Shown here in pieces: positions 1,901-50,869 of a stretch of 64,000 nucleotides of DNA. This DNA comes from Nocardioides zeae (GTDB lineage Bacteria > Actinomycetota > Actinomycetes > Propionibacteriales > Nocardioidaceae). Every line of letters begins with the position of its first letter. Position 1 is the first letter of the stretch. The position numbers were made by a program, and so were the translations under genes. The DNA is taken from the NCBI RefSeq assembly GCF_010686755.1, contig NZ_JAAGXA010000008.1, positions 1-64,000 of the forward strand, in the 5' to 3' direction. Under the pieces are notes generated by a model. It saw nothing but the letters and a program-made list of their open reading frames with translations. It made no database searches and was not told the origin of the DNA.

Positions 1901-2698
1901 TCAGACCGCCGTCGGACGCAGGTGCTCGCGGGCGAAGGCGAGGGAGTCGGCGAGGTCGGCCCGCCGGTCGTCGGCGGTCTCCGCCTTGCGCGTGTTGATC
2001 TCGAGCACGACGTGACCGTCGAACCCGGTGCGCACGAGGTGGCGCAGCAGCCGCTCGGGCTCCATGCGCCCGCGTCCCGGCACGAGGTGCTCGTCCTTGG
2101 CGGAGCCGGTGCCGTCGGTGAGGTGCACGTGCCGCAGGCGCTCACCGAGGCGCTCGGCCATCGCGACCGGGTCCGAGCCCGCGATCGCGGCGTGCGAGAC
2201 GTCGATCGTGGTGTTGGCGTAGTTCTCCTCGGAGGGGTCCCAGCCCGGGACGTACACCTCCATGCCCCGCGTCGAGCCCTTCCGGGGGGTCGCCTTCCAC
2301 GGATACATGTTCTCGACGGCGAACGCGACGCCGCTCGACTCCTCGAGCGCCGCGATGCCGTTGACGAAGTCGCGGGCGTACTCCCGCTGCCACCGGAACG
2401 GCGGGTGCACGACCACCACGTCCGCACCGAGGGCCGTGGCCATCTCGGCCGACCGCTCCAGCTTCCCCCACGGCTCGAGCCCCCAGACCGCCTGCGTGAA
2501 CAGCAGGCACGGGGCGTGCACCGCACACACCGGTACGTCGTGGTGCTGCGCCAGCTGCTCCACCGCGGCCACCTGCTGGCTGAGCGCGTCGATCCCGACC
2601 ATGACCTCGACCGCGTCGTACCCGAGCTCGGCCGCGTAGGCGAACCCGTGCGCGGTGGACTCGGGGTAGACCGAGGAGGTGGACAGACCGACGAGCAT
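1901..2698 (-). CDS. Sugar phosphate isomerase/epimerase-like TIM-barrel protein
   Basis: A 265-residue AP-endonuclease-2/xylose-isomerase-like barrel. It opens with the beta-strand MLVGLSTSSVYPES and holds metal-ligand-type motifs VHAPC, VVHPPF, AVENMYP, DVSHAA, HVHLTDG and VVLEINTRK near the C-terminus, as expected for a divalent-metal site. Its place between ppx and proC matches Rv0498 of M. tuberculosis. No substrate is known for this clade, so a specific reaction is not assigned. It lies 36 bases downstream of ppx and probably shares its transcript. Confidence 0.85.
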   Translation of the reverse strand: MLVGLSTSSVYPESTAHGFAYAAELGYDAVEVMVGIDALSQQVAAVEQLAQHHDVPVCAVHAPCLLFTQAVWGLEPWGKLERSAEMATALGADVVVVHPPFRWQREYARDFVNGIAALEESSGVAFAVENMYPWKATPRKGSTRGMEVYVPGWDPSEENYANTTIDVSHAAIAGSDPVAMAERLGERLRHVHLTDGTGSAKDEHLVPGRGRMEPERLLRHLVRTGFDGHVVLEINTRKAETADDRRADLADSLAFAREHLRPTAV

Positions 2699-2734
2699 CG
2701 AGCCGCTCCTAGCTGTCGGGGATCGGGGCGGGGG

Positions 2735-3670
2735 TCAGCCCAGGACGCTGAGCTGGTCCAGCCGCTCCAGGATGACGCCCTCCCGAAGGGCCCAGGGACA
2801 GATCTCGAGGCCCTCGAGACCGAAGATGTCCATGACGGCGTCGGCGACGAGGGCTCCGGGCACGACCTGGTGGGTGCGGCTCGGCGAGACGCCGGGCAGC
2901 GCGGCGAGCGCCTCGTGGTCCATCACCATCAGCTTGGGGATCCACTCCCGCAGCTCGGCCGCGGGCAGCACCCGCGGCGCGAGCGGCCCCTCGGACGAGC
3001 CCGGCGCGCCGCAGATGCGGGCCAGGGAGCGGAAGGTCTTGGAGGTGGCCACGGCCTTGTCGGGCGCACCCGCACGTAGCAGGTTGCCGGCGTCCCGGGC
3101 GATCTCGGCCCGGATGGTGCGGCGCAGGTCGCGGACACGGTCCTCGTCGGGCACGCCGTCGGCGAACCAGGCGCGCGAGAGCCGCGCCGCGCCGAGCGGC
3201 AGCGACCACGCGACGTCGGGCGCCTCGTTGGCCCCGCCCGCGATCTCCAGCGAGCCGCCACCGATGTCGAAGACGGCCAGCCGGCCCGCCGACCAGCCGA
3301 ACCAGCGCCGTACGGACAGGAAGGTGAGGCGCGCCTCGTCCTCGCCCGAGAGCACCGTGAGCGGCACGCCGGTGCGGCCCTCGACCTCGGCGAGCACGGC
3401 GTCGGAGTTCGACGCGTCGCGGACCGCGGACGTCGCGAAGGCCAGCATGTCCTCGCAGCCCTTGTCCTCGGCCACGACCTTCGCCTGCTGGGCGAAGGCG
3501 GCGAGGGCGTCGATGCCCGCCGGGGTGACCGCGCCGGACGCGTCGAGGTGCTCGGCGAGGCGCAGCGGCTCCTTGTAGGAGGAAGCGGGCAGCGGCGCCG
3601 CGCCACCGGCGGCGTCGACCACGAGCAGGTGACCCGTGTTCGAGCCGATGTCCAGCACTCCCAACCTCAT
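2735..3670 (-). CDS. ppx: Exopolyphosphatase / guanosine pentaphosphate phosphohydrolase family
   Basis: ASKHA-fold phosphatase of 311 residues, the short single-module Ppx/GppA form typical of actinobacteria (Rv0496 type). Phosphate-binding loops are visible as [11 protein letters not shown] at the N-terminus and [10 protein letters not shown] near residue 137, with the catalytic-glutamate region [11 protein letters not shown] between them. It would release phosphate from polyphosphate or hydrolyse pppGpp; which one cannot be told from sequence. Translation is probably leaderless: a TACCGT box ends seven bases before the ATG. It heads the ppx-TIM-ProDH-proC minus-strand block and diverges from the Rv0495c-like gene. 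Polyphosphate synthesis (ppk) is encoded 9 kb away. Confidence 0.92.
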
Positions 3671-3677
3671 GGGCAGA

Positions 3678-3683
3678 ACGGTA
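3678..3683 (-). promoter_or_regulatory. Leaderless -10 box of ppx
   Basis: TACCGT on the minus strand, followed by seven bases and the ATG at 3670. This is the geometry of actinobacterial leaderless transcripts, in which the start codon is the 5' end of the mRNA. Confidence 0.55.
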
Positions 3684-3715
3684 GCGCCGCGAGGGCCCGC
3701 CGGCGGCGTCGCCCG

Positions 3716-3721
3716 TAGGGT
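3716..3721 (+). promoter_or_regulatory. Leaderless -10 box of the Rv0495c-like gene
   Basis: TAGGGT followed by six bases and the GTG at 3728. With the ppx box it makes a divergent pair of leaderless promoters inside 57 bases, so the two genes share one control region. Confidence 0.55.
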
Positions 3722-3727
3722 GGCCCG

Positions 3728-4513
3728 GTGCCCGACCAGTCCGGCCCCTCCGGCGAGGTGCCCCTCGACTTCCCCCGCGCCTGGGTCGAGTTCGCCGACC
3801 CCGCCGACGAAGGCCAGGTCTTCCGCTGCGACCTGACGTGGCTCACCTCGGCGTACACCTGCATCTTCGGCGCCGGCTGCGCCGGCATCTACGCCTCGGC
3901 CCCCGACGTGGGCTGCTGCACGCTCGGGGCGCACTTCTCCGACCGTGACGACGAGCGCCGGGTCGCCGGGTTCGTCGCGGAGCTGGACGCCGACCTGTGG
4001 CAGCACCGCCCGGACGTCGCGAAGGTGACCCGGAAGGACTGGGTGACCAAGGACGAGGACGGCGCCCGCAAGACGCTGACGATCGTCGTCGACGGGCAGG
4101 AGGCGTGCGTGTTCGCCAACCGTCCCGGCTTCGCCGGGGGCGAGGGCTGCGCCCTGCACGCGCTCGCCCTGCGGCAGGGCCGCAACCCGCTGGAGACCAA
4201 GCCCGACGTCTGCTGGCAGCTGCCCCTGCGCCGCACCTACCGCACCGTCGAGCGGCCCGACGGCACGTCCTACCTCGAGGTGTCGATCGGCGAGTACGAC
4301 CGCCGCGGCTGGGGGCCGGGCGGGCACGACCTCGACTGGTACTGCACCGGCAACCCCGTCGCGCACGTCGCGCCCGAGCCGCTCTACGTGACGAGCGAGG
4401 CCGAGCTGCGGGAGCTGATGGGGGACGCCGGGTACGACGCGCTCCTCCGTCACTGCGAGGCGCACGTGCGCTCGCGGTCGGCCCTGGCGCTCCACCCGGC
4501 CGACCCCCGCTGA
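3728..4513 (+). CDS. Conserved cysteine-rich protein, Rv0495c-like
   Basis: A 261-residue cytoplasmic protein of unknown function. It is rich in cysteine: CIFGAGCAG and [12 protein letters not shown] lie near residues 44-68, with further Cys at GEGCAL, DVCW and DWYCTGN. The spacing suggests a metal or Fe-S site. No signal peptide or membrane segment is seen. The GTG start has no Shine-Dalgarno but a TAGGGT box six bases upstream, supporting a leaderless start. Divergence from ppx matches Rv0495c/Rv0496 of M. tuberculosis, where the pair is also conserved; a role connected to polyphosphate or (p)ppGpp is possible but only inferred from context. Confidence 0.85.
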
Positions 4514-4526
4514 ATCCCTCCGTTAA

Positions 4527-4542
4527 GTCTCGACGTCAAGAC
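4527..4542. promoter_or_regulatory. MarR/TamR-like operator upstream of the VOC gene
   Basis: The imperfect 16-base palindrome GTCTCGACGTCAAGAC resembles the TCTTGACGTCAAGA-type sites bound by TamR/PecS-class MarR regulators of actinomycetes. It sits about 50 bases before the VOC gene start at 4592. No MarR gene is present in the window. Confidence 0.35.
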
Positions 4543-4591
4543 ACCCGACCCCGGTTTCGCGGCGCCGCGGTGTGTCGCACAGAATCGGGCC

Positions 4592-5230
4592 ATGCGCCTC
4601 GACCACGTCTCGTACGCCGCCGGACCCGACGGACTGGCGGCGACCGCCGAGCGCATCGGGAAGCTGCTCGGCCGGGAGTTCACCGACGGCGGCATCCACC
4701 CCCGCTTCGGCACCCGCAACATGACCCTCGGCCTCGCCGGTGACACCTACATCGAGATCGTCGAGGTGCTCGACCACCCGGCGTCCGACAAGGCCCCCTT
4801 CGGCCAGGCGGTGCGGGCGCGGTCCGCGCTCGGCGGCGGTTGGCTCGGCTGGGTCGTCGCCGTCGGCGACCTCTCCCGCATCGAGCGCCGCCTCGGCCGC
4901 GAGGCCGTCAAGGGCAGCCGCCACCGCCCCGACGGCACCGAGCTGGTCTGGAAGCAGCTCGGCGTGAACGGCCTCATCGCCGACCCGCAGCTGCCGTTCT
5001 TCGTGCACTGGGAGTCGCCGCGGGAGCTGCACCCCGGCGCGGGCGCCGACCAGGCGTTCTCGCTGGCCTCGCTGGAGATCGCCGGCGACCCGCACCGCGT
5101 GAGCGAGTGGCTCGGCGAGCCCATCGAGGAGCCCCTCGAGGACATGAAGGTCGAGTGGGTCGCCCCGCACGGCACCCCCGGCCTGCTCGCCGTCCAGGTG
5201 CAGACGCCGGACGGCCTCGTCCGCATCTGA
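4592..5230 (+). CDS. Glyoxalase-like (VOC-fold) domain protein
   Basis: A 212-residue protein beginning MRLDHVSYAA, the first beta-alpha-beta unit of a vicinal-oxygen-chelate fold. The second half (around HWESPRELHPG, SLASLEIAGDP) looks like the paired module of the Glyoxalase_3-type family. Candidate metal ligands are His5, the Glu in YIEIVEVLDH and HWES. The substrate is unknown; related proteins include dioxygenases and isomerases. CAGAAT lies six bases before the ATG, so the start may be leaderless. A methyltransferase gene follows by 19 bases and is probably co-transcribed. Confidence 0.75.
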   Translation: MRLDHVSYAAGPDGLAATAERIGKLLGREFTDGGIHPRFGTRNMTLGLAGDTYIEIVEVLDHPASDKAPFGQAVRARSALGGGWLGWVVAVGDLSRIERRLGREAVKGSRHRPDGTELVWKQLGVNGLIADPQLPFFVHWESPRELHPGAGADQAFSLASLEIAGDPHRVSEWLGEPIEEPLEDMKVEWVAPHGTPGLLAVQVQTPDGLVRI

Positions 5231-5249
5231 GCGCCTGAGCACCCGGCTC

Positions 5250-5981
5250 GTGGCGACGCTGCCGCCCGGCGCCCCCCGCGGCACCATCCCCAGCCCCAAC
5301 ATCTGGGAGCACACGGCCGCCTACGAGCTCGAGAACCGCGGCGTCGACCGCGGCGGGCTCATCGAGCGCACCATGCGCGGGATCCACGACTGGTCCGGCG
5401 CCACGTTCCTCGACCTGGGCTGCGGTGCCGGGTTCCACCTCCCGCGGTGGGCCGGTGCGGAGCCGACCGGCGGACGGGCCGCCCAGGTCGTCGGCGTCGA
5501 GCCCCACCCCGCGCTGGCCGCGCTGGCGCGCCGCCGCGTCCGCACCCTCGAGGGCGTGCGGGTCGAGGTGGGCTCCGCCCAGGAGATCCCGCTGCCCGAC
5601 GCCTCCGTCGACGTGGTCCAGGCCCGCTGGGCCTACTTCTTCGGCCCGGGCTGCGAACCCGGCCTCGCGGAGCTCTCCCGCGTCGTACGGCGCGGGGGCA
5701 CCGCGTTCGTCATCGACAACGACGGGTCGCGCTCGACCTTCGGGACGTGGTTCCGGCGGGGGTACCCGAAGGTCGACCCCCCGGAGGTGATCGAGCGGTT
5801 CTGGGCGTCGCACGGGTGGCACCGGGAGCCGCTCGAGATCGCCTGGGAGCACGACACCCGGGAGGACTTCGAGGCCGTCGTGCGGATCGAGTTCGACCCG
5901 CGCACCGCCGACGCGATCCTCGCCGAGCACCCGGGCACGTCCGTCGACTACGCCGTCAACCTGTGGTGGCGGCGGTTCTGA
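5250..5981 (+). CDS. Class I SAM-dependent methyltransferase
   Basis: A 243-residue Methyltransf_11/25-type enzyme. SAM motif I is FLDLGCGAGFHLP near residues 52-64, motif II VVGVEPHP, motif III IPLPDASVDVVQARW and post-motif GTAFVIDNDGS. Substrate not identifiable. It begins with GTG 19 bases after the VOC gene and ends 24 bases before the convergent LacI gene; a short inverted repeat (5982-5987 with 5995-6000) in that gap may help termination. Confidence 0.82.
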   Translation: MATLPPGAPRGTIPSPNIWEHTAAYELENRGVDRGGLIERTMRGIHDWSGATFLDLGCGAGFHLPRWAGAEPTGGRAAQVVGVEPHPALAALARRRVRTLEGVRVEVGSAQEIPLPDASVDVVQARWAYFFGPGCEPGLAELSRVVRRGGTAFVIDNDGSRSTFGTWFRRGYPKVDPPEVIERFWASHGWHREPLEIAWEHDTREDFEAVVRIEFDPRTADAILAEHPGTSVDYAVNLWWRRF

Positions 5982-16617: not shown

Positions 16618-16665
16618 GGACGTCATGCGCCTCGGTGGCCCCAGGCAGCGGGACGCATGACGTCC
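16618..16665. repeat. Inverted-repeat element, copy A
   Basis: Twelve-base perfect arms (16618-16629 and 16654-16665; GGACGTCATGCG and its complement) enclose 24 bases. It lies 17 bases after the pit stop and shares about 50 bases of sequence with copy B, 73 bases further on. Confidence 0.85.
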
Positions 16666-16690
16666 CGCGCGATGCGGTGTGGCCGCTCCC

Positions 16691-16738
16691 GGACGTCATG
16701 CACTTCGGCGCCGGGGGGCAGCGGCACGCATGACGTCC
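16691..16738. repeat. Inverted-repeat element, copy B
   Basis: Eleven-base perfect arms (16691-16701 and 16728-16738) enclose 26 bases, ending eight bases from the stop of the DUF559 gene. Its loop shares the GGCAGCGG word with copy A, in the same orientation. Confidence 0.85.
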
Positions 16739-16746
16739 CACGCATG

Positions 16747-17724
16747 TCAGGCTGCCGCCGCAGGTACGTCGCGGCACCAGCCGCCACGGCGCAGGCCCGC
16801 CTCGATCTGGTCGAAGAACGCGTCCGCAGCGAAGCGCAGTCCCAACAGCGGCAGCCGGAGCACGGTGTCGGCGCCGGACAACGTCACCGCGTTGTGACGG
16901 ATCGCGTCGGCGACGACGTTCTCCGCCCACGCGTGGTGGATGCCGTCGATCTCCACCACGAGGCCGTACCCCTCCCACCAGACGTCGAGGAAGTAGCTGC
17001 CGTCGCGGGCACGGCGACGTGACTGCCGCGTCGGCTCCGGCAGCCCCCGCCGCCGACACTCGCGGGCCACGTCGATCTCGCCGAGCGACTCCGCTCCGCC
17101 AGCGAGCTCCAGGAGGACGGTGCCGACCAACCGGCGCCGACGGTCACGCCGGATCCGTAGGAGCTCGGTCGCGATGCGCTCCGTCGTCGTGACTCCCTGC
17201 TGCACGCTCATCGTGAGGAGCAGCGTCGCCTGACGGTCGCTGTCCGCCCAGAGCGCGCCGCGCACGGCAGCGACCTCGGGACGGCTGCGGGGGATCCCCG
17301 TGCCGACCACGTCTGCCGGATCGAACCGGCGGGTCTGGCGCACCGCGACGCCCCGGGCCCGGCGCACCCGGGCTCCCCGCGGCACGCTGACGCGAATGTC
17401 GCCGCCCGCGAACCGACGGAGACCGGCTACCTCCAGCGCAGCGACGCCGTCGAGGTACGCACGCGGCCCGGCGCCGAGCACCGCAGCCCACAGCTCCGCG
17501 GCGCGCGGCAGCGGGCCCGTGTGCACGATGACGCACTGCGATCCCCGCCGCCGCCAGCGCTCCCCGGCCAGCTCGGCGCGCAGCTGCGCGCGGGTGACGC
17601 CTGCGCCGTACAGCTGCCGCAGGCTGAGCACTCCCTCCTGACCGGAGGCGACCTCGAGCGCGCGGACGCGCGCCGCTGCTCGGACCGATCGTGCTGCCTG
17701 ACGCTGTGCGGGGGTGAGGGGCAT
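16747..17724 (-). CDS. DUF559 (Vsr-like endonuclease fold) protein with AbiEi-type N-terminal domain
   Basis: A 325-residue protein. Residues about 25-65 (GVLSLRQLYGAGVTRAQLRA, then GERWRRRGSQC) look like the winged-helix domain shared with AbiEi antitoxins. The C-terminal 100 residues match DUF559, a PD-(D/E)XK-like fold related to very-short-patch repair nucleases, with SLGEIDVARECRRRG, YFLDVWWEGYGLVVEIDGIHH and LRLPLLGLRF; the VVEIDG strand carries candidate catalytic residues. The function is unproven. The ATG at 17724 follows GAGGATG. Two inverted-repeat elements sit on each side and the gene interrupts an otherwise phosphate-only region, suggesting a mobile or selfish arrangement. Confidence 0.8.
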   Translation of the reverse strand: MPLTPAQRQAARSVRAAARVRALEVASGQEGVLSLRQLYGAGVTRAQLRAELAGERWRRRGSQCVIVHTGPLPRAAELWAAVLGAGPRAYLDGVAALEVAGLRRFAGGDIRVSVPRGARVRRARGVAVRQTRRFDPADVVGTGIPRSRPEVAAVRGALWADSDRQATLLLTMSVQQGVTTTERIATELLRIRRDRRRRLVGTVLLELAGGAESLGEIDVARECRRRGLPEPTRQSRRRARDGSYFLDVWWEGYGLVVEIDGIHHAWAENVVADAIRHNAVTLSGADTVLRLPLLGLRFAADAFFDQIEAGLRRGGWCRDVPAAAA

Positions 17725-17825
17725 GGCGGCATCCTCGGCGGCGGTACTGCTCCGCGGCCGCCCGCCGGGGCCGCCTGTGCACAGGTCCGTCGGGGTCCGG
17801 ACCTGTGGACCGCAGACGGGCCCGC

Positions 17826-17875
17826 CGGACGTCATGCGCGGCGGCCGCCCCGGCCACCGGATCGCATGACGTCCG
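17826..17875. repeat. Inverted-repeat element, copy C
   Basis: Thirteen-base perfect arms (17826-17838 and 17863-17875) around 24 bases, 101 bases upstream of the DUF559 start. Reverse-complemented, its loop aligns with copy A (shared CGGTGGCC), so the pair on this side is inverted relative to A and B. Confidence 0.85.
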
Positions 17876-17889
17876 CAAGGGGTTCCCCG

Positions 17890-17937
17890 GGACGTCATGC
17901 ACGGCGGCCACCCCGGCCACCGGATCGCATGACATCC
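17890..17937. repeat. Inverted-repeat element, copy D
   Basis: Eleven-base arms (17890-17900 and 17927-17937) with one mismatch (GACATCC for GACGTCC) around 26 bases. It shares GGCGGCCaCCCCGGCCACCG with copy C and is the most decayed copy. Confidence 0.8.
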
Positions 17938-17955
17938 GCGAGGGAGAAGCACGAA

Positions 17956-17992
17956 GGCCCGGCCGACCACGACGTGCGTGGCGGGCCGGGCC
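17956..17992 (-). terminator. Terminator of the pst operon
   Basis: GGCCCGGCC (17956-17964) pairs with GGCCGGGCC (17984-17992) 14 bases beyond the pstB stop; on the minus strand the stem is followed by TTCGTGCTT. Confidence 0.6.
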
Positions 17993-48902: not shown

Positions 48903-49205
48903 GTGAACCGACTCCTCGCCGCCGCCGCGACCGGCGCCTCCGTCCTCCTGCTCAGCGCCTGCTCCGGCGGCACCGTCGACCAGGGCGACCTCGAGGACCA
49001 GGTGAAGTCGTCCCTCACCGAGACCGTCGGCCAGGCGCCGAAGGACATCGACTGCCCCGACGAGCTCGAGGCCGAGGAGGGCGCGACGACGACCTGCGTC
49101 CTGACCGCGGACGACGACAGCACCATCGACGTCGAGGTCGAGGTGACGAGCGTCGACGGCGACCGCGTCGACCTCGACATCCAGGTCGCCGACGAGGTCA
49201 ACTGA
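48903..49205 (+). CDS. DUF4333 lipoprotein
   Basis: A 100-residue exported lipoprotein. The signal peptide ends in LLLSAC with Cys20 as lipid site. The remaining 80 residues are one acidic DUF4333 domain with a conserved cysteine pair (DIDCPDEL and TTTCVLTADD), likely a disulfide. GTG start. A TAGCGT box at 48862-48867 may be its -10 element. Function unknown. Confidence 0.85.
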   Translation: MNRLLAAAATGASVLLLSACSGGTVDQGDLEDQVKSSLTETVGQAPKDIDCPDELEAEEGATTTCVLTADDDSTIDVEVEVTSVDGDRVDLDIQVADEVN

Positions 49206-49241
49206 CGCGTCGAGCTTGGTCGTACGGCGCGGCAGGAGCGT

Positions 49242-49302
49242 CGAGTTGTCAGGTACGCCGTGGTGCGAGTGGGGGAGGCGTCGCTGCGTACGTGACAACT
49301 CG
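49242..49302. repeat. Inverted-repeat element upstream of the HNH gene
   Basis: Seventeen-base arms (49242-49258 and 49286-49302) with one mismatch enclose 27 bases. Arm and loop sizes are like those of the four elements around the DUF559 gene, though the sequence differs (CGAGTTGTCAGGTACGC). Confidence 0.85.
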
Positions 49303-49381
49303 CCGCTGGTCTCGGGTCGGTCATCCACAGATCACCATCGAGAGGTGGTGTTCGTATGTCTGTTCGACTAGGGTCGGGGGC

Positions 49382-50824
49382 ATGGATCGGGGGACCCACA
49401 CCACAGCGACCGCGTTGATCGACGCGGTCCGCGAGCGCACGGCTGCGGCTCGTGTGGCGGAGGCGGCTGCGTTCGTCGCGGTGGGTGACTGGGCTTCCGC
49501 GCACACCTCGGACGCCGTCGTGGGTGATCCCCTTACGACGCTGGGCGAGTGGGACGCCGAGGCTCTGACTGGAGATCAGTTCCTCGAGCTGGGTGGGCCG
49601 GGGGCGCCGGTGGTCGCGGAGTTCTGCATCAGCGAGATCGCCGCAGCGCGGGGTTGCTCGTTCGACGCCGCGCGGCGGTTGGTCGGGGATGCGGTCGAGC
49701 TGCGGTACCGGCTGCCGCGGGTTCATGCGCGGATGGCTGCGGGTGAGGTCGACGTGTGGCGGGGTCGGCGGGTCGCGCAGGCCACGCGGTCGTTGACGTT
49801 CGAGGGGGCGGGGTTCGTCGACCGGCACATTGCGTACGTCGCGGGCAAGGCCACCGGTCCCGAGGTCGACCGGCTGGTGGCGGAGGCCGCAGCGCGGTTC
49901 GACCCCGAGACCACCGAGGCCGAGCGCCACGAGGCTGACGGCGACCGCTACCTGACGATCGACCTCGGCGACCTCGGCTACGCCGACCCACTGACCGGGA
50001 CCCTGCGCGGCACCGTGAACGTCCACGGCAGCCTCGACCTCGCCGACGCGCTCGACCTCGAACGCTCCATCGCGCACGTCGCCCGCCAGCTCGGCGACCT
50101 CGGCTGCGACCCGAACCTGGATATCCGCCGGTCGATGGCCCTGGGTGAGATGGCGCGGCGCTGCGAGGGTGTCGCGACGTTGGAGTACGACGTGAAGAAG
50201 CCAACGCGGGCGCGGCGGGAGGTGGTGCTGTTCGTGCACCTCGACCAGGCGGCGATCACCGGCACCCTGAACGGGGTCGGTCCCGGGATCGATGCCTGCA
50301 CCGGAATGACGGGCATCGACCTCGCCCGCCTCGACACCCCAGGCGCGCCCCGCGGGGCCGTGACGGTCGAGCAGGTCCAGTCCTGGTGCGGCTCGCCCGA
50401 CACCACCATCACCATCCGGCCGATCATCGACCTCACCACCGAAGACGCCGTGAACGGCTACGCCCCGCCCGACCGGATCGCCGACCACGTCCGGGCCCGC
50501 TGGCCCAGGTGCGTCTTCCCCTACTGCACCCGCTCCTCACGGACCGCCGACCTCGACCACTGCGACGCCTATGAGCAGCACGGAGCGCTCGGCCAGACCT
50601 CCACCCGGAACCTGTTTCCGCTCTGTCGACGTCACCACCGCATGAAGACCCACCGCGAGATGGCGACGGGGAAACGGTGGGTCTACCGTCCCACCGCCCC
50701 CAACAACGGCGAACCACCCCACGCCCTCATCTGGACCAGCCCGCTCGGCCTGCGCTACCTCGTCGACCACGACGGCACCCGACCCTGGCCATCAGAGCCA
50801 GGGCGAGAACCAGACGCCACCTGA
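49382..50824 (+). CDS. 13E12-type DUF222/HNH endonuclease-domain protein
   Basis: A 480-residue protein of the family called the 13E12 repeat in mycobacteria. Residues about 60-330 are DUF222 (EISEIAAARGCSFDAARRLV-like helices, VDRHIAYVAGKATGPEVD). The C-terminal HNH domain has CVFPYCTRSSRTADLDHC and RNLFPLCRRHHRMKTH, with the His, Asn and zinc-type Cys in place. DNA cleavage is expected from the fold but the role is unknown; these genes occur in several copies per actinobacterial genome. A 17-base-arm inverted repeat lies 80 bases upstream. Confidence 0.88.
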   Translation: MDRGTHTTATALIDAVRERTAAARVAEAAAFVAVGDWASAHTSDAVVGDPLTTLGEWDAEALTGDQFLELGGPGAPVVAEFCISEIAAARGCSFDAARRLVGDAVELRYRLPRVHARMAAGEVDVWRGRRVAQATRSLTFEGAGFVDRHIAYVAGKATGPEVDRLVAEAAARFDPETTEAERHEADGDRYLTIDLGDLGYADPLTGTLRGTVNVHGSLDLADALDLERSIAHVARQLGDLGCDPNLDIRRSMALGEMARRCEGVATLEYDVKKPTRARREVVLFVHLDQAAITGTLNGVGPGIDACTGMTGIDLARLDTPGAPRGAVTVEQVQSWCGSPDTTITIRPIIDLTTEDAVNGYAPPDRIADHVRARWPRCVFPYCTRSSRTADLDHCDAYEQHGALGQTSTRNLFPLCRRHHRMKTHREMATGKRWVYRPTAPNNGEPPHALIWTSPLGLRYLVDHDGTRPWPSEPGREPDAT

Positions 50825-50838
50825 GCGACAAGCACACC

Positions 50839-50869
50839 GCCGCCCGCCCACACCCCGTGGCCGGGCGGC
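50839..50869. terminator. Hairpin between convergent HNH and hypothetical genes
   Basis: Eight-base perfect arms (50839-50846 and 50862-50869) around 15 bases in the 67-base gap between two stops. Confidence 0.45.

Follow-up and report, generated by a model that had tools for sequence, protein, structure and literature searches.

The DUF222/HNH nuclease genes of Nocardioides zeae are associated with a short repeat unit that is dispersed through the genome, and the pairing of such genes with repeats recurs, with different repeats, in two other species of the genus (G088 and G095), though not in two more (G036 and G115). With a probability of about 0.4, these genes are SOS-inducible nuclease cassettes that sit at gene 3′ ends and are tied to species-specific repeats, the repeats probably being places where the enzymes cut or cassettes land, and thereby promoting gene conversion. 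The evidence comes from the window, that is, the whole stretch of 64,000 nucleotides analyzed here (contig NZ_JAAGXA010000008.1, positions 1 to 64,000), from the genome to which it belongs (G000; 4.40 Mb in 33 contigs), from its sister species (G107), and from a total of 147 Nocardioides genomes examined.

In the window an inverted-repeat search identified a palindrome with 22-nt arms (49237-49258 and 49286-49307) that are 91% complementary and separated by a 27-nt spacer; its end lies 75 bp before the ATG (49382) of a 480-aa DUF222/HNH gene. The original prediction had described 17-nt arms at 49242-49258 and 49286-49302; these form the core of the palindrome, with one mismatch, and the element is confirmed. 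Within the window alone the arm has two matches at up to 3 mismatches, a number reached in 12 of 100 shuffles and hence weak evidence; the decisive evidence for the palindrome is provided by genome-wide counts, which place it beyond chance because its arm proves to be a repeat dispersed throughout the genome for which the reversed controls give 0. The arm occurs 80 times in G000 at ≤1 mismatch (reversed control 0), and the paired pattern AGTTGTCA-N20-50-TGACAACT matches the genome 21 times, at 19 places, against 0 for the reversed control pattern. The exact 15-mer GAGTTGTCACGTACG is present 57 times in G000 and 27 times in G107; the remaining 145 genus genomes lack it.

The arm is part of a unit 26 nt long that comes mainly in two forms, type I (...TTGTCACGTACGCC...) and type II (...TTGGGTCGTACGGC...), and a 24-letter form of this unit matches G000 at 95 places with ≤2 mismatches (control 0). 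The palindrome as a whole (49237-49307, no strand) consists of two type I units that face each other across a conserved middle: its left arm is the core of a type I unit on the plus strand (49240-49263; 2 mismatches to the unit pattern), and its right arm is an inverted type I unit on the minus strand (49286-49307; inverted-repeat and arm searches). The same element recurs at other cassettes of clade B, the clade of the window gene, and at scars of lost cassettes. Besides the palindrome, the window holds a single type II unit (GTCGAGCTTGGTCGTACGGCGCGG; 49209-49232, plus strand, 0 mismatches to the 24-letter pattern) directly 3′ of the stop codon of the upstream gene; the orthologous site in G107 carries 11 type II units followed by the palindrome and, after it, the cassette. 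Throughout G107 the units form regular tandem arrays, the spacing being 31 bp in 187 of the 200 same-strand spacings below 80 bp. A small lipoprotein-like gene (48903-49205) lies just upstream of the palindrome in the window, and the orthologous G107 site has tandem 31-bp units instead of this gene.

The nuclease gene itself (49382-50824, plus strand) encodes a protein that exceeds the curated cut-off for PF02720 (E 3.2e-7; 30.4 against 24.4 bits) with a partial match (profile positions 41-187 of 306); the Pfam HNH profile gives 0.072, below its curated cut-off. An HNH region at residues 377-424 (50510-50653, plus strand; D390, H393, N410, C415, H419) was delineated from alignments of 7 and 35 sequences: D390, H393, N410 and H419 are invariant among the 7 aligned proteins, and in the 35-sequence alignment H393 and H419 are invariant with D390, N410 and C415 conserved at ≥90%. 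The C-terminal HNH motif is present in all 21 clade-B proteins of G000 and G107. The AlphaFold model of the window protein has a mean pLDDT of 75.7 and a pTM of 0.66; Foldseek comparison of the model with the PDB returned no match at E ≤ 0.001, an NCBIfam search with the protein returned no family, and solved relatives gave weak matches only, the HNH region matching IscB at E 0.11 and worse. Relatives of the protein occur in 138 of the 147 genus genomes, often with at least 10 per genome. A contig search with an alignment as query gave 203 relatives, the best 80 of which are all from Nocardioides or Nocardioidaceae, whereas the single window protein as query gave none.

G000 contains 19 PF02720 genes, nine of clade A and ten of clade B, the other nine clade-B proteins being 85-90% identical to the window protein; at least three further genes, found beside arms and with two of them cut by contig ends, belong to clade C, which is 26-29% identical to clade B. 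As judged by eye, the ten clade-B cassettes have in common a stretch of DNA whose left edge is generally TC[AG]TCCACAG (GTCATCCACAG in the window; 49320-49330, plus strand) and which stops just after a terminator-like hairpin behind the stop codon (GCCGCCCG...CGGGCGGC; 50839-50869, plus strand), and the DNA outside these limits is unrelated from copy to copy.

A unit (≤5 mismatches in 26) lies within 400 bp upstream of 22 of the 31 DUF222 genes of G000 and G107 (5/9 for G000 clade A, 7/10 for G000 clade B and 10/12 for G107 clade B) and downstream of 0/31, and control gaps contain no unit either in these two genomes (0/146) or in two other species (0/126). Fisher's test on the unit counts gives 3e-21, a value that ignores the kinship of the copies; as paralogues that bring the palindrome with them, the clade-B copies are not independent events. 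The control gaps, of 80-1000 bp, came from hand-picked 20-kb stretches, 10 each in G000, G107, G088 and G115, with genes called by a simple codon score and seed units drawn from the same repeats that are under study; one G107 stretch (L262) begins inside the end of a clade-A gene, and at 5 mismatches there are two weak type II matches in the G000 sample outside the tested gaps and one match of the reversed pattern in the G107 sample. Direction also agrees, the unit pointing the same way as the gene in 15/15 cases upstream of G000 clade A, 16/21 upstream of G000 clade B and 76/83 in G107; the matches counted on the minus strand include the inverted partners of palindromes. Three clade-C loci also lie beside arms; having been found through arms, they are no test of association. 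With clade B set aside, a clade A or C gene stands at 9 of the 29 G107 loci that were chosen by their repeats. The association of DUF222/HNH genes with the unit, rather than with palindromic geometry, is supported by these counts.

The geometry had been the substance of the original prediction, which proposed that long-loop palindromes accompany nuclease genes generally in this lineage. Of that proposal, the comparison of DUF222 flanks with controls leaves standing a more specific tie, to the dispersed unit (22/31 against 0/146); the geometry does not generalize upstream. When inverted repeats with a score ≥ 12 are counted, they occur upstream of 5/10 clade-B genes in G000 and 6/12 in G107 and upstream of 0/9 clade-A genes in G000, and in four other species of only 1/40 genes (G036, G115 and G088 each 0/10, G095 1/10). 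Palindromic geometry is accordingly rejected as the common factor upstream, although downstream G088 reaches 8/10, compared with 11/61 elsewhere (G000 clade B 4/10, G107 clade B 2/12, G000 clade A 0/9, G036 1/10, G115 3/10, G095 1/10). Control rates of 56/272 in ordinary gaps, 20/36 in convergent gaps and 8/240 in random windows show that gene ends often have inverted repeats in any case. Besides clade B, only the downstream side in G088 stands out, and in this respect G088 favors the original prediction.

The same proposal had leaned on another nuclease-type gene in the window, DUF559-like (16747-17970, minus strand; PF04480 at 17.2 bits, under the cut-off of 20.6), with a palindrome described as different in sequence. 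Different it is: it belongs to a repeat family of its own (GGACGTCATGC...), matched 77 times genome-wide. The two nuclease genes thus have unrelated repeats beside them, and a general palindrome link is not supported. This second family (GGACGTCATGC-N26-GCATGACGTCC) spans 48 bp in every place listed, and its copies at 16618-16738 and 17826-17900 lie on both sides of the DUF559-like gene. Relatives of the DUF559-like protein were found neither at 10 opened GGACGTCATGC loci nor at the other G000 loci compared, and a single DUF559 gene exceeds the Pfam cut-off in the genome (contig C11). With an unrelated repeat and no such relatives at the GGACGTCATGC loci, the DUF559 link is rejected.

More than half of the unit clusters lack a full DUF222 gene: 27/40 in G000, 13/23 in G088 and 21/36 among those listed in G095. 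In 21 of the 27 G000 clusters of this kind (the scar loci L077 and L094 are counted among them) a unit lies ≤60 bp after a co-oriented stop codon, and 15 of the 27 sit between convergent genes; cassettes, like the units, follow stop codons. These positions favor the main rival reading, which takes the repeats for terminators or insulators at gene ends and holds that the cassettes persist mainly where they are shielded from read-through or where insertion is harmless, so that the pairing is ecological and not mechanistic. Folding bears on it in both directions. The RNA of the palindrome (71 nt folded alone) has a predicted energy of -42.8 kcal/mol (z -5.0, 0/200 shuffles equal), with a spacer able to pair further as an inner stem that leaves an 11-nt loop in the predicted fold, and facing unit pairs in general fold strongly compared with shuffles (z -5.0, -5.5, -5.6). 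A lone tandem array with no facing partner, however, reaches only z -1.6; no T-run is seen by eye 3′ of the palindrome, whose strong hairpin thus lacks the second component of an intrinsic terminator (GC hairpin plus T-run); and 0/23 stem pairs among 11 copies show compensatory changes, which is a weak test of structural selection on the hairpin because shuffles do equally well. The finding that 0/146 ordinary intergenic gaps contain a unit argues against a general terminator, and the presence of arrays on both sides of the genes in G095 also counts against this rival. The gene-end reading is doubtful.

How the repeat sites themselves evolve can be followed by comparing G000 with G107. At 26 site pairs, a sample that is biased towards sharing because the pairs were found via shared repeats, units are present in both species (82 in G000, 202 in G107); most are of type I in G000 (63/82) and of type II in G107 (158/202). 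Ten extra site pairs were opened because one species apparently had no units there; six of them have units in both species after all (L080, L095, L097, L100, L107, L277), and four in one species only (L096 in G000; L162, L177 and L165 in G107). The G107 partner of L098 was not found, and no clean gain junction was seen in the opened site pairs. Since most pairs have units in both species while array lengths differ, the repeat sites are mostly old and it is the arrays that lengthen or shorten; some sites are gained or lost.

Being short, dispersed, extragenic and palindromic, with doublets in inverted orientation, the repeats have the properties of REP/REPIN sequences, and they might accordingly be non-autonomous mobile units moved by the nuclease or by a tyrosine transposase encoded elsewhere. 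Spaced facing doublets, extragenic dispersal, tandem clusters and a candidate gene alongside are all features of REPINs and their RAYT (TnpA-REP) partners in the available text of PMC3116915, and the four one-sided pairs among the ten extra ones indicate that repeat sites come and go. The neighbor here, however, is an HNH protein, whereas RAYT is described as a HuH/Y1 transposase (available text of PMC8266576); unlike REPINs, the present units stand after stop codons in arrays with a regular 31-bp period, and mobility is not seen in the site pairs, 26 of which have units in both species with no clean gain among those opened. Movement of this kind is improbable as the explanation. A word search of the available text of a further REP paper (PMC3733652) found no actinobacterial or HNH mention.

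The arrangement of palindromes around clade-B genes bears on a different possibility, namely that a palindrome stood by accident beside a founder cassette and was then copied along with it. The full palindrome lies just ahead of the shared DNA in five of the ten G000 genes (L011, L013, L014, L015, L017); L016 has a decayed palindrome, L012 a unit without palindrome, L018 decayed units and L019 none, and at L010 units lie ~570-630 bp upstream. Four palindromes with the clade-B middle have no full gene: three (L077 and two in L094) adjoin short remnants of cassette ends, and the fourth (L111) lies beside a 147-aa gene fragment. G107 has full genes at both L094 sites and at the L111 site, and no gene at the L077 site; at three sites, then, a complete G107 cassette corresponds in G000 to a scar or gene fragment, with deletion-like junctions. 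The differences at L094 (twice) and L111 look like losses by deletion, and no clean insertion with a matching empty site was found. Among clade-B copies the palindrome, with its distinctive middle, does behave as copied DNA, in keeping with the position of the four gene-less palindromes at scars or a gene fragment (by eye). As a general account, copying from a founder is very improbable, because clades A and C and other species, which do not derive from a G000 clade-B cassette, show the pairing too, in other arrangements or with other repeats. Two clade-B loci on contig C2 of G000 lie beside repeats of another sort, which we take to be CRISPR-like: at L081 (4873-4986) they are 28 nt long, 96% alike and 86 apart, with a repeat unit between them, and at L079 (5079-5162) 23 nt long, 91% alike and 61 apart.

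In G088 the repeat flanking ten DUF222 genes is a different one, present 59 times genome-wide (reversed control 1), with 39 copies lying within 700 bp of the ten genes, a space amounting to 0.66% of the genome; its leading flank 11-mers are found in 0/63 control gaps. G095 has yet another repeat, with 273 copies (reversed control 3), placed in inverted orientation and pointing inward on both sides of 10/10 genes. Among the 100 exact copies listed (of the 273), 60 lie within 700 bp of known DUF222 genes, five of these genes having been found through the repeats. Five of five facing array pairs 1.4-1.5 kb apart in G095 enclose a clade-A DUF222 gene; four of the pairs were picked from spacing alone and the fifth from one-sided hits, and the other nine opened loci have no such pair. 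The clade-C-like gene of G095 has one weak repeat match 390 bp upstream, and that of G088 has no repeat nearby. An 11-mer search in G036 and G115 found no shared DUF222-flanking 11-mer above 3/10, despite the perfect SOS boxes of these species. Clades A, B and C use one repeat within G000, and clades A and B another in G095; since the repeats do not track the nuclease clade, one-to-one specificity between enzyme and repeat is unlikely. This sharing of a genome's repeat among clades fits equally the reading of repeats as nuclease sites and the gene-end reading.

Clade B evolves in concert. A full clade-B gene is present in both species at eight orthologous sites (L081, L084, L086, L102, L105, L106, L109, L112), and at a ninth (L113) the G107 gene has a frame break. 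If the copies at these sites had evolved apart, orthologues would be expected to pair in a tree; instead, the 10 genes of G000 and 11 of the 12 of G107 (the gene at 1272574, with a frame break near its start, was left out) fall on the two sides of one branch with 100/100 support, a split by species that points to copying between loci within each genome. Blocks flanking the orthologous cassettes are ~86-94% identical, and the cassette blocks, where aligned apart, 80-84%. REP13E12 of M. tuberculosis is listed among five high-burden gene-conversion networks of that species in the available text of PMC13061034.

The promoters of these genes suggest how they may be controlled. The window gene is preceded by a site, TCGTATGTCTGTTCGA (49352-49367, plus strand), that by consensus comparison departs at 2 of 12 positions from TCGAACN4GTTCGA, the SOS-box consensus. 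In all ten clade-B promoters such a site begins 30 bp ahead of the start codon and differs from the consensus at 1-2 positions, 3/3 clade-C genes have one with one mismatch, and a perfect box lies near the start of 30/30 DUF222 genes in G036, G115 and G088. At ≤1 mismatch the box is found at 43 of 71 named loci (those long enough to test, of 80 fetched) compared with 1/500 random windows, and control gaps with 0-2 mismatches number 1 in G088, 3 in G115, 0 in G000 and 2 in G107. Boxes are absent from clade B of G095 and, with the exception of L009, from clade A of G000; L009 (contig C29) has a near-perfect box (TCGAACATGTGTTCGG, one mismatch) ~90 bp before the gene. These sites suggest that many of the DUF222/HNH nucleases may be SOS-inducible through LexA. 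In M. tuberculosis the LexA regulon includes 13E12 genes (available text of PMC5005354).

SOS boxes would also be expected if the proteins were simply host SOS repair enzymes, with copy number, repeats and homogeneity as by-products, and M. tuberculosis network data have led to the proposal that 13E12 HNH proteins act in mismatch repair (available text of PMC4181829). A repeated element accounts better for the many copies, the species-specific sets of sequences, the scars and the gene fragment, and a repair role leaves the pairing with repeats unexplained; we consider this account quite improbable.

In the preferred reading, DNA damage would lift LexA from the SOS-box-like promoter and induce the nuclease, the HNH enzyme would cut DNA at or near the repeats, and recombination repair templated by another copy would homogenize the cassettes; the same repair could restore or spread cassettes between repeat sites, lengthen or shorten the repeat arrays, and keep cassettes beside repeats. 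Association, orientation, stop-codon position, multi-copy cassettes with unrelated flanks, SOS-box-like promoters, HNH conservation and concerted evolution were computed, and beyond them we infer that LexA binds, that the enzyme is an active nuclease which cuts at the repeat, and that it has a causal part in conversion. That the repeats are sites of nuclease action is the simplest reading that joins association, conversion and array changes. Free-standing HNH homing endonucleases are a comparable system. The present genes resemble them in being selfish-looking nuclease genes for which conversion would follow from cutting; they differ in that no clean pair of occupied and empty sites, cut site, intron or intein was seen here, and in their many copies and many sites.

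The nearest known system is REP13E12 of M. tuberculosis, whose DUF222 proteins carry the HNH residues and are encoded in several similar copies per genome, with LexA/SOS control (PMC5005354) where the present genes have SOS-like sites, and with strong conversion between copies (PMC13061034). Comparison is by description only, and flanking 31-bp arrays or palindromes go unmentioned in the available text of its descriptions. The repetitive nature of the 13E12 family is described in the available text of PMC10589994, and an HNH DNase of M. smegmatis in that of PMC9416677, which leaves DUF222 membership unstated; none of the open-licence papers searched was found to describe repeat arrays beside DUF222 genes. 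Already known from mycobacteria, then, are the protein family and its repetitive character, as well as control by LexA and conversion between genes; what is new is the repeat arrays. It is conceivable, if unlikely, that DUF222/HNH genes and species-specific gene-end arrays make up a nuclease-driven counterpart of REPIN-RAYT, in which SOS-induced HNH enzymes would recognize the repeats, and cutting plus repair there would spread and homogenize both. If true, this could explain the purpose of the mycobacterial 13E12 repeats, REP13E12 regions being described as having no defined biological function in the available text of a 2026 preprint (PMC13061034). For a family with no settled job, a cognate-looking repeat is a concrete candidate substrate, available in species that are non-pathogenic, and the finding bears on how such families remain near-identical within one genome.

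Some repeat sites hold other DNA. In G107 a third 31-bp unit form (GTCGAGATGGGA...) stands in tandem beside a type I unit at L165 (3190-3430), a place where the array is absent from G000. L174 (~2930-4560) and L191 (~2200-3700), also of G107, have a common insert of ~1.5 kb between facing arrays; the same sites in G000 (L087 and L088) have only ~240 bp, alike in both loci. At L101 of G000 (5091-5891; contig C29, ~95021-95821) facing repeat arrays enclose a gene of 266 aa whose codon score is low, and its product has a weak match, under the cut-off, to a RecA-dependent nuclease (Ref-like; E 0.021).
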